Made by a program: the position numbers and the translations under genes. A stretch of 54,340 bases of DNA. It comes from Minisyncoccota bacterium. GTDB taxonomy: Bacteria > Patescibacteriota > Minisyncoccia > Phycocordibacterales > UBA5272. The DNA is taken from NCBI GenBank assembly GCA_018062965.1, contig JAGORG010000002.1, positions 65,860 to 120,199 of the forward strand, given 5' to 3'. Below, piece by piece: positions 2,940 through 53,061 of the stretch. Below the pieces are notes generated by a model, which was given only the letters and a program-made list of their open reading frames with translations, searched no databases and had not been told where the DNA came from. Numbering within the stretch: the stretch's first letter is position 1; each line of letters begins with the position of its first letter.

Positions 2940-3911
2940 CTAGTTGTTCACACTCTCCCAATAGGAAACATTTGCCATGTGCATCTGCAAAACCTCGTCA
3001 TGCTCACTCATTTTTTCACCTCTCTTTGCTGTGGCCCACGCTATCCATACAAGGTCAGAAACGGCTCGTTCATATGCTCTAGCAGCGTATAAAGTATCCA
3101 TGTGAGGAATAGTTACCCGTTGTTTCCAAAGCTCTTGAACCTTGTTACGAAACTTTTCCTTTTCCATTCCAAAAATAGAGGCAAATCGCTCACCAAATAA
3201 TACAACCATAAACATAGGGTCACCAAGACTTACTTTCTGCCAATCGATAAATACAGCTTTATCTTCTGATGTTTGAAAAATAATATTCCCTGGATGTACG
3301 TCATTATAGATAAATGTTTGTGGAATATCTTTAAGGAGGGCATCATTTTTGATGAGGATAATCTTTGCCGTTTCAGCTATTGAATCTAGCCTTTCAGCCA
3401 GCACTGGAGAGACATTTCGTACAACATCTATTCTCTCTTTCCATACAGGAAAACTGACTTCATAACTTGGGTAACGAAACACAAATGAAAAATCATTCTC
3501 TGTTATTGAAACTGAACTCACCTTGCCCAGTAACTCAAGACACACTGAAATGTATTCCTCTGGAAATACACGCGAAGATGCGACATCGCCTTCTACATAA
3601 CTCTCTAGTAGTACCGGCTTACCAAAAATATCCGTATCAAATGCAATAGCACGCGGTGCAACGTCGTATTCTTTAAGTAACTGCAATATCTTGTACTCAG
3701 ATTCCAGATGTGTATGATTAAGCGCACCGGATTCCTTAACTATACGAAGCACATATTTTCCTATATCGGCTTCTATAAGGTAATTATCGTGACTACTACT
3801 TCCACCACCATCTAAAAGACTTACATGTCTTAGCACTCCTAGGTTCTCTTGGACAAGTAATGCCGCAATAGATTCATTAAGAGTATTTCCAGTAAGTGTT
3901 ATGTTTTCCAT
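2940..3911 (-). CDS. APH/choline-kinase-family phosphotransferase
   Basis: This 323-residue cytoplasmic protein has the aminoglycoside phosphotransferase fold. A glycine-rich loop (LLDGGGSSSHDNYLIEA) and the ATP-lysine strand KYVLRIVK form the N lobe. The Brenner-type catalytic loop reads YNDVHPGNIIF and is followed by the metal-binding FIDWQKVSLGDP. The usual HGD of the catalytic loop is YND, keeping the Asp-x-x-x-x-Asn spacing. Likely substrates are a small hydroxylated metabolite (choline, sugar, homoserine or nucleoside); the sequence does not decide, and a drug-resistance role should not be assumed. A TATACT box lies a few bases before the ATG, so the mRNA is near-leaderless. Confidence 0.75.
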   Translation of the reverse strand: MENITLTGNTLNESIAALLVQENLGVLRHVSLLDGGGSSSHDNYLIEADIGKYVLRIVKESGALNHTHLESEYKILQLLKEYDVAPRAIAFDTDIFGKPVLLESYVEGDVASSRVFPEEYISVCLELLGKVSSVSITENDFSFVFRYPSYEVSFPVWKERIDVVRNVSPVLAERLDSIAETAKIILIKNDALLKDIPQTFIYNDVHPGNIIFQTSEDKAVFIDWQKVSLGDPMFMVVLFGERFASIFGMEKEKFRNKVQELWKQRVTIPHMDTLYAARAYERAVSDLVWIAWATAKRGEKMSEHDEVLQMHMANVSYWESVNN

Positions 3912-14342: not shown

Positions 14343-14345
14343 ATA

Positions 14346-14626
14346 TTGTTCTTTATCTATAAGCCGAATTCTGTATTTGTATAGACATGTACCTAGGATG
14401 ATAGTTACCCATCACCTCATGCGACTCAAAGGATTGCTCCAGTACGGTCTTGCACACACGTATGTATTTAGCCGTTTCAGCCGGACTTAACCGGATCGTT
14501 TCTGTTCGCAACACGATGGTCACCCACGACGGGCGTTACCCGCTACGCTTGTCGTATTACTACGACGATGTGTTCGGACTTTCCTCATCCACTAAAAAGT
14601 AGACGCGTCTACCCAACAAAGAACCT
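14346..14626 (-). ncRNA. rnpB: RNase P RNA (bacterial type A)
   Basis: This is the catalytic RNA that matures tRNA 5' ends. On the minus strand the conserved 5' core TGAGGAAAGTCCGAACA is followed by the P7-P11 region and, at the 3' side, the hallmark ACAGAATTCGGCTTAT. The ends pair as P1 (GTTCTTT with AAAGAAC). The length of about 280 bases is short for type A, implying loss or trimming of peripheral helices. A strong promoter and terminator bracket it. Confidence 0.95.
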
Positions 14627-51108: not shown

Positions 51109-51226
51109 TTGTTCTCCCGACAGGCTACTTTCCCGGCATTGCCAGTATCATCGCCGCACAAGAGCTTAACTTCTCTGTTCGAAATGGGAAGAGGTGTGAC
51201 CCCCTGGCTAAATCAGGAGAACAAAA
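51109..51226 (-). rRNA. rrf: 5S ribosomal RNA
   Basis: Conserved loop sequences CCCATTTCGAACAGAGAAGTTAAGC are present (in two parts: CCCATTTCGAACAG and GAAGTTAAGC), and the ends TTTGTTCTCC and GGGAGAACAAA form helix I. Length about 118. Confidence 0.95.
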
Positions 51227-51251: not shown

Positions 51252-51435
51252 TGGTGGGGCTGATTGGTTTCGAACCAACAACCTCTGCTGTGTCGCCCTG
51301 TAAGTCCTTTCCTTCCTCCAACTTGTCGTTAGCAGTCCCTAGAGCGTGAGCTCTAGGCAAAGGTTGCAGTCAACCGCCTTGGCAGTGTGACAACTTAAGG
51401 AGCAAGCAGCGCTCTCCTCTTTGAGCTACAGCCCC
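51252..51435 (-). ncRNA. Ala-like tRNA body with a 115-base 16S-like insert in place of the anticodon loop
   Basis: On the minus strand a tRNA frame is complete apart from the anticodon loop: acceptor GGGGCTG/CAGCCCC, D arm GCTC/GAGC, anticodon stem CTGCT/AGCAG (51405-51409 and 51285-51289), variable AGGTT, T loop TTCGAAA, then ACCA. The 115 bases between the anticodon strands are not a group I intron that I can recognise, and no splice restores U33 with a sensible anticodon. They contain GGGACTGC, GACAA and GGAGGAAGG in the order and spacing of 16S helices 39-40 (51311-51357), with the h40 stem changed on both strands, and looser similarity to the sequence before and after. The acceptor lacks the G3-U70 pair needed for alanine identity. 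Confidence 0.7.
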
Positions 51436-51469: not shown

Positions 51470-51587
51470 TGGTCGGGGTGAACAGATTTGAACTGCCGAC
51501 CTTCCCTTAACAACCACCGTCCGCATTACCGCGGCTGCAGGAGCAGGACAGTGATCAGGACGCGCTACCAGACTGCGCTACACCCCG
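51470..51587 (-). ncRNA. Pro-like tRNA body with a 16S helix-18 (530-loop)-like insert
   Basis: Acceptor CGGGGTG/CACCCCG with A73 and CCA, D arm GCGC/GCGC with the Pro-typical TGTAGCGCAG start, variable AGGTC and T loop TTCAAAT form a tRNA-Pro-like body. The anticodon strands TCCT and AGGGA enclose a 39-base hairpin (51515-51553): an 8-bp stem CACTGTCC/GGACGGTG capped by a loop containing GCAGCCGCGGTAAT (51525-51538), the universal 16S 530-loop sequence, followed by CGGA. No splice I tried produces a Pro anticodon. Confidence 0.7.
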
Positions 51588-52120: not shown

Positions 52121-52489
52121 CTGTCGTATTTGTCTTGTATTACTACAAGGATCGGACTATATCTTCATCCACCCGATCAAAGGTGGCGTTGGCGTATTAA
52201 CTATGAGTTCTTCTCATAATTCCATCACATTGTTTGTTTGGATACTCTCCGTGCAAACGTGATAAGTCTCTACAGGGTTATATGAATAATCACAATGTTA
52301 CTTGTGCAGCTCTCCATTTCAAATGGAGTGATCGCTTTCTTATTCATAAACTTCCCACGGTATTGCCCTTGCGTTGTTCATGCGCATGGGTTTCACCGTT
52401 ATAAGCCAAGAATTTCTTTGTACATATTATTTATTGACGATTGTACATATGTTGCTACAGGATTACTCCTGACGCACCCCGATATGTTA
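52121..52489 (-). other. group I intron in 23S rRNA (about E. coli position 2500)
   Basis: A 369-base insert splits GGCACCU^CGAUGUCGG in the peptidyl-transferase centre. The exon GCACCU pairs with an internal guide GGGTGC (52474-52479), giving the U-G wobble required at the 5' splice site, and the insert ends in G. The conserved core is visible: GGGCAAT-type Q, GTAGAGACTT (R) and AAGATATAGTCC (S). No homing-endonuclease ORF. Removal restores the normal 23S sequence exactly. Confidence 0.88.
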
Positions 52490-53061
52490 AGGTGCCGAAC
52501 TGTGCCGTCGATATGAACTCTTAGGCACAACTAGCCTGTTATCCCCGTGGTAGCTTCTATCCGTTAATCTGCACCCGCATCTAAAGCGAAGTGTAGGTTC
52601 ACTAGGACCCACTTTCGTGTCTGCTCGACATGCCCGTCTTACAGTCAAGCCATCTTATGCCCTTACGCTATCGGCACGGTTTCCATTCGCGCCTAGATGA
52701 CCTTAATATACTCCTCCGTTACCTTTTAGGAGGAAACCGCCCCAGTTAAACTCCCCACCAGATACTGTCTGCGAACGTTTTTTCCGTTCACGTTAGCAAG
52801 TGCCCAATTACAGATGACTGTTTCATTGTTGAGTAGAGTACAACCGAAATCATACACATCAAACCTCTCGTCACTACACTACGCAGTAATTGAACAATTG
52901 CAATACCAAGCTAGAGTAAAGCTCACGGGGTCTTTTCGTCTATCTGCAGGTAACCGGCATCTTCACCGGTACTGTATTTTCACCGAGCTACTCCCTGAGA
53001 CAGTTCCCCAGTCGTTACGCCATTCGTGCACGTCTGAACTTACCAGACAAGGAATTTCGCT

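Follow-up and report, generated by a model that had tools for sequence, protein, structure and literature searches.

A tRNA-Pro-like element with a 530-loop-like insert and related tRNA-likes in the 23S-5S rRNA spacers of Patescibacteria

The spacer tRNAs of bacterial rRNA operons are decoding tRNAs, and in organelle transcripts functional tRNAs act as punctuation that marks neighbouring RNAs for excision. The minimal substrate of RNase P consists of the acceptor stem and the T arm. Inserts in bacterial tRNA genes, including those of Patescibacteria, are known in the form of group I introns, and a 2025 preprint by Nakagawa et al. reportedly describes, going by its title, a novel position for group I introns in the tRNA genes of Patescibacteria. 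The two elements described here, T1 and T2, lie between a 23S and a 5S rRNA gene. Like bacterial spacer tRNAs, they are tRNA shapes inside an rRNA transcript and expected substrates of RNase P, but whereas spacer tRNAs decode, T1 and T2 contain rRNA-like inserts and are devoid of an anticodon loop. As in organelle punctuation, the tRNA shape would serve to cut out adjacent RNAs; however, punctuation tRNAs are functional and the lower half of T1 and T2 is replaced. T1 shares with intron-bearing genes an insert in a tRNA gene, but the insert is only 42 nt long and no group I core was found in it. In being a bacterial tRNA-like without an apparent role in translation, T1 also recalls tRNA-Other, a pseudo-tRNA of Bacillus cereus that flanks a genomic island; unlike T1, tRNA-Other has a Trp anticodon, lies outside an rRNA spacer and is not described as an rRNA mimic in the portion of that paper drawn on here (PMC3399842). 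Open-access titles and abstract openings yielded no description of tRNA/rRNA chimeras of the T1 and T2 type.

The window, by which we mean the whole stretch of 54,340 nucleotides analysed, belongs to a 646-kb genome (G000) and presents the gene order 23S-T1-T2-5S, all on the minus strand, which places T1 where a punctuation element would be located (Table 1). A group I intron (53.7 bits) lies within the 23S gene at positions 52133-52499 of the minus strand. T1 runs from the acceptor strand CGGGGTG to CACCCCG-A-CCA and resembles tRNA-Pro. The boundaries given by an earlier, sequence-only reading of this DNA were exact, and its description of the acceptor, D and T arms and of the CCA end as intact, features that a functional tRNA-Pro would have, was confirmed by the sequence, the Rfam tRNA model and the fold. 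The tRNA model recovered T1 in a genome-wide search, and the scan of 18 tRNA-like loci assigned 52 nt to the anticodon-arm insert; ARAGORN run without introns did not detect the element. In the predicted fold the anticodon arm consists of a 4-bp stem followed by an 11-bp helix with the 530-loop-like cap, and the 8-bp stem CACTGTCC/GGACGGTG that the earlier reading had placed beneath the 530-loop sequence is part of it. An archaeal-type (BHB) intron would be marked by a bulge-helix-bulge where its exons meet and would depend on a splicing endonuclease; the fold shows one 5-nt bulge. Relative to shuffles the fold scored z -1.75, a value shared by an ordinary spacer tRNA folded alongside, so the overall stability of T1 is not special. 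T1 is known from a single genome, and the 60 genomes compared gave no full-length relative apart from T1 itself. Although T1 lies near a contig end, a joining error is unlikely because the arms are intact on either side of the insert.

Table 1. Features of the 23S-5S spacer and related loci in the window (positions of the window)
Feature	Positions	Strand	Basis
T1, tRNA-Pro-like element, 42 extra nt in anticodon arm	51470..51587	-	sequence; Rfam tRNA 43.6 bits; fold
T1 acceptor stem, 5' strand CGGGGTG (partner 51474-51480)	51581..51587	-	7/7 pairs
T1 acceptor 3' strand, A73 and encoded CCA	51470..51480	-	sequence
T1 T arm, GGCAG TTCAAAT CTGTT	51481..51497	-	sequence; fold
T1 530-loop-like segment, 24/27 identical to E. 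coli 16S 518-544	51515..51541	-	alignment; model R3 match 51521-51546, 16.5 bits
T2, second tRNA-like, long anticodon-arm insert	51252..51435	-	by reading, all pairs formed in acceptor and T arm; top R1 match, 85.1 bits (T2 in R1 training set)
T2 mimic of 16S helices 38, 39 and 40	51304..51367	-	model R2 37.5 bits, E 2e-7; next window site 12.2 bits
23S rRNA, upstream of T1, 5' part past contig end	51733..54340	-	Rfam RF02541 1324.7 bits
5S rRNA, downstream of T2	51112..51220	-	Rfam RF00001 64.8 bits
RNase P RNA, of the enzyme that may act on the tRNA-likes	14344..14624	-	Rfam RF00010 109.6 bits; RnpA protein elsewhere in genome

The likeness of the T1 insert to helix 18 of 16S rRNA and of the T2 insert to helices 38-40 is borne by tRNA scaffolds, while a complete 16S gene of the organism lies elsewhere. 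For T1, the ungapped alignment with the E. coli 530 loop scored 39, where the best of 40 shuffles reached 23 (estimated E about 1e-6), so the resemblance exceeds chance and, as a matter of sequence, we take it as real. In a stricter test, a helix 18 model (R3) made of eight real 16S genes ranked T1 first in the window, albeit at E 0.11, and gave E 0.0058 within the 18 tRNA-likes. Of the two Infernal searches that the sequence-only reading had proposed, that with the tRNA model found T1, and that with the Rfam whole-molecule SSU models left the 530-loop segment unreported. The continuation of the 16S match into the flanks, also proposed then, holds for GGTG on one side and is limited upstream to TCC of the stem. 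Identity with the own 16S of the organism is lower (20/27) because that gene reads CAGCAGCAGCGG in the loop, where E. coli has CAGCAGCCGCGG and T1 has CTGCAGCCGCGG; T1 is thus nearer to the generic than to the resident sequence, and its segment was not recently copied from the resident gene. By reading, the partner strand of the helix 18 pseudoknot is missing from T1. Among the 16S genes examined, 11 of 13 distinct helix 18 sequences have CAGCAGCAGCGG instead of CAGCAGCCGCGG, and in the own 16S, by reading, a U505 change in the pseudoknot matches it. A split or fragmented 16S was rejected, since the own gene is full length at C3:1462-3020 (positions 1-1533). Nine stretches of viral contigs with the 530-loop pattern were judged by reading to be chance, one being a tRNA-Leu-like acceptor and the others having no tRNA context; the h40 pattern gave 0 stretches in these contigs.

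T1 has the fold of a tRNA without decoding capacity, as a pseudo-tRNA does, and lacks an NGG anticodon in a 7-nt loop with U33. While 25 admissible single excisions yield an anticodon-type stem with U33, none of them (0/25) gives NGG, which bears out the earlier statement that no splicing tried gave a Pro anticodon with U33. The genome also has a normal tRNA-Pro(UGG) elsewhere (G000:C9:106665-106737), a gene whose presence that reading had left to be checked. According to ARAGORN, the 36 tRNA-model matches of this genome other than T1 and tmRNA are all ordinary tRNAs; a tRNA-Ala was not seen among them, and the rRNA operon falls partly in an assembly gap. An apparent second intron-bearing tRNA at C10:38634-38802 (L026) is the tmRNA gene (87.1 bits). 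The sequence-only reading had offered two options, a non-decoding tRNA-like RNA or an intron. The first is better supported, by the normal Pro(UGG) gene, the excisions and the mostly non-decoding tRNA-likes of homologous spacers described below.

T2, the neighbour of T1 that the earlier reading did not mention, contains a second 16S mimic, arranged as GACTGC-stem-GACAA-stem-GGAGGAAGG. Rfam SSU models matched it weakly, with a single archaeal match below gathering (18.2 bits, E 0.043), and for this reason we built model R2 of helices 38-40 from nine real 16S genes only. R2 also matched the tRNA-likes L067 (43.2 bits), G014 (39.8), L066 (39.3), G274 (21.8), G008 (16.0) and G005 (12.4), the copies in G005 and G274 being degraded. 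The h40 hairpin was aligned for five of these seven elements, the two diverged ones being omitted. In T2, G008, G014, L066 and L067 it has equal length and is paired in 35/35 cells; two pairs are changed on both sides and the unpaired letters are kept. This level of pairing was reached by 10/500 shuffles, a weak statistic with five related rows. Conservation of the motif suggests that the inserts do not serve as filler alone. In this genus, h40 of the own 16S is long-extended, and the tRNA-borne copies stay in the short form. Locus L066 (about 3627-3884) is a tRNA-like carrying a mimic of 16S h35-h40; an Rfam SSU model matched it over positions 1052-1185 (27.5 bits, E 2.2e-6, under the gathering score of 50). 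No rRNA gene was found in the 700-900 nt of flank read, and by eye the flanks resemble CTP synthase and gyrA genes. A second model (R1), which combines h40 with the T arm, singled out only four of 297 genomes of the order (85.1, 84.4, 55.6 and 52.1 bits), the top two being the training-set genomes G000 and G008. Since R1 also picks 16S genes and ordinary tRNAs once scores fall under about 43 bits, its tallies of 289/297 and 42/379 are background; in the set of 379 the own genome was the sole match above 43 bits. Among named records, those that have the h40-bearing element go under Patescibacteria group, Candidatus Nomurabacteria or plain bacterium, and we assign the organism to this kind accordingly.

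We surveyed the 23S-5S spacers of the own family (17 5S loci), of the genus of G274 (13) and of an order sample, which comprised, from 174 genomes with a 5S, the 30 loci already given and another 100 places. Counts refer to the 155 of 160 loci with a recognised 23S end; the five 5S loci without one (own G000, G014, G006, G676 and G072) stand outside the 45 tRNA-likes found, which belong to 37 genomes, so that most spacers have no tRNA-like. A nested G099 row (191 nt) does not enter the counts, and a doubtful G204 row (178 nt) was kept as non-decoding. No 7-nt loop with U33 is present in 32 of the 45, and 13 have a decoding-type loop. Elsewhere in the loci retrieved only 3/90 tRNA-likes were non-decoding (Fisher p 3e-17), and two of these three controls, own T1 and G006, are spacer elements that the spacer rule missed. 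With the two families picked for their matches excluded, 22/31 spacer tRNA-likes were non-decoding. By reading, the departures take several forms: short anticodon loops of 4 to 6 nt (G199, G221, G141, G677, G137), C at position 33 (G059, G087), expansions of the D loop (G006, G012, G103, G137, G141, G185, G274) and inserts in the anticodon arm (G000, G005, G008, G044, G274). The D-loop inserts gave no clear match to 16S or 23S. The spacer tRNA-like L140 (G671), however, matches 25/27 letters of E. coli 23S 1900-1926, which we take to be helix 69 (H69). A T arm was found 60 times in 158 spacers, and reversing the spacers gave a single T-arm motif; the strict rule recognises a paired acceptor for 51 of the 60, and inspection by eye does so for most of the other nine. 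In G009, by reading, the D and anticodon arms are gone and the acceptor and T arm are retained. Note that the finder requires both of these arms, so that elements without them are invisible to it and the survey is biased toward concluding that they persist. In L003 (G011, 1618-1692) and in the second tRNA-like of L035 (G012), AT-rich arms extend the acceptor stem, and there is no CCA.

A top half that is kept and a lower half that is lost, in a spacer between two rRNAs, would fit a processing mark. Consequently, we consider it probable, with some reserve, that T1 and T2 are non-decoding tRNA-likes that keep the RNase P-type top half as a mark for processing of the rRNA transcript, and whose lower half no longer decodes and has sometimes captured rRNA segments. 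Both elements would be transcribed in the 23S-5S spacer and cut there, presumably by RNase P; the retained acceptor stem, T arm, elbow and CCA correspond to the half read by this enzyme. Such cuts would part 23S from 5S in the rRNA precursor, in the manner of tRNA punctuation. The lower half, freed from decoding, may then have lost length, gained an enlarged D loop or taken up inserts across the order, the inserts being the 530-loop-like segment in T1 and the h38-h40-like junction in T2. Loss of decoding may itself be selected, given that an out-of-set tRNA released from every rRNA transcript could harm translation. Both the RNA and the protein (RnpA) of RNase P are encoded in the genome, the former in the window, and the RNase Z model gave no match at its curated cut-off. 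The absence of a tRNA-like from most spacers indicates that the mark is dispensable, and L066, apparently located between protein genes, is not explained by punctuation of an rRNA transcript. Nor does a processing mark account for the similarity of several inserts to conserved rRNA hairpins. Elements of this kind recur in one spacer across an order, and tRNA annotators skip them or would assign a false anticodon. The bacteria concerned are reported to possess about half as many ribosome biogenesis factors as is usual (PMC12641178). If T1 and T2 are processing marks, a tRNA would have been pared down to the part read by RNase P in bacteria with fewer such factors.

It is the resemblance to rRNA that gives weight to an alternative in which the tRNA-like scaffold displays a copy of an rRNA hairpin (h18, h38-40 or H69) as a decoy or regulator, bound by a ribosomal protein, an rRNA enzyme, an assembly factor or an rRNA-targeting agent. 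Three different conserved rRNA hairpins occur in such elements, the covarying h40 stem with its constant unpaired letters points in the same direction, as does the closeness of T1 to generic bacterial rRNA, and L066 stands outside any rRNA operon in the flanks read. However, the mimics are rare (the four genomes of 297 found with R1 include the two from its training set), the copies in G005 and G274 are degraded, the 530 copy of T1 is without its pseudoknot strand by reading, and the binding partner is purely hypothetical. We therefore regard display as unlikely, while holding that the rRNA mimicry may be functional. A slightly less doubtful, still tentative, combination would be a class of chimeric small RNAs of Patescibacteria in which an rRNA hairpin (530 loop, h38-40 junction or helix 69) replaces the anticodon of a tRNA scaffold that is cut from the rRNA precursor and mimics the ribosome, titrating one of the partners just named. 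Should the mimics prove functional, they would be regulatory or decoy RNAs of a new type.

That the spacer elements are ordinary tRNA pseudogenes in decay, with rRNA pieces captured by chance, agrees with the degenerate forms in G009 and G014 and with the normal tRNAs retained in the spacers of certain relatives (G144, G207). Decay should affect all arms, yet acceptor and T arms remain paired with differing sequences while anticodon loops are lost, a contrast that is partly one of ascertainment, and we judge this explanation improbable.

An intron of a novel class, spliced out to give a working tRNA, is very improbable: the anticodon loop is a frequent insert site, G008 may encode a spliced Pro(GGG) tRNA, which several registers would give if the insert sits at 37/38, and group I introns figure in the preprint title mentioned above, but cmscan found no Intron_gpI match at E up to 10 in the T1 and T2 region or at E up to 0.5 in any of the 18 elements (0/18), Pro is unobtainable from T1 by a single excision, none of the excisions or registers tested gave U33 for T2, G005 or L067, and many relatives have no anticodon insert and a loop of just 5 or 6 nt. 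This also disfavours the second option of the sequence-only reading. Elsewhere, L087 (G286, 1488-1579), a tRNA-like whose anticodon arm is non-decoding and which lies upstream of part of a 23S, adjoins a weak group I intron match of 23.7 bits, below gathering.
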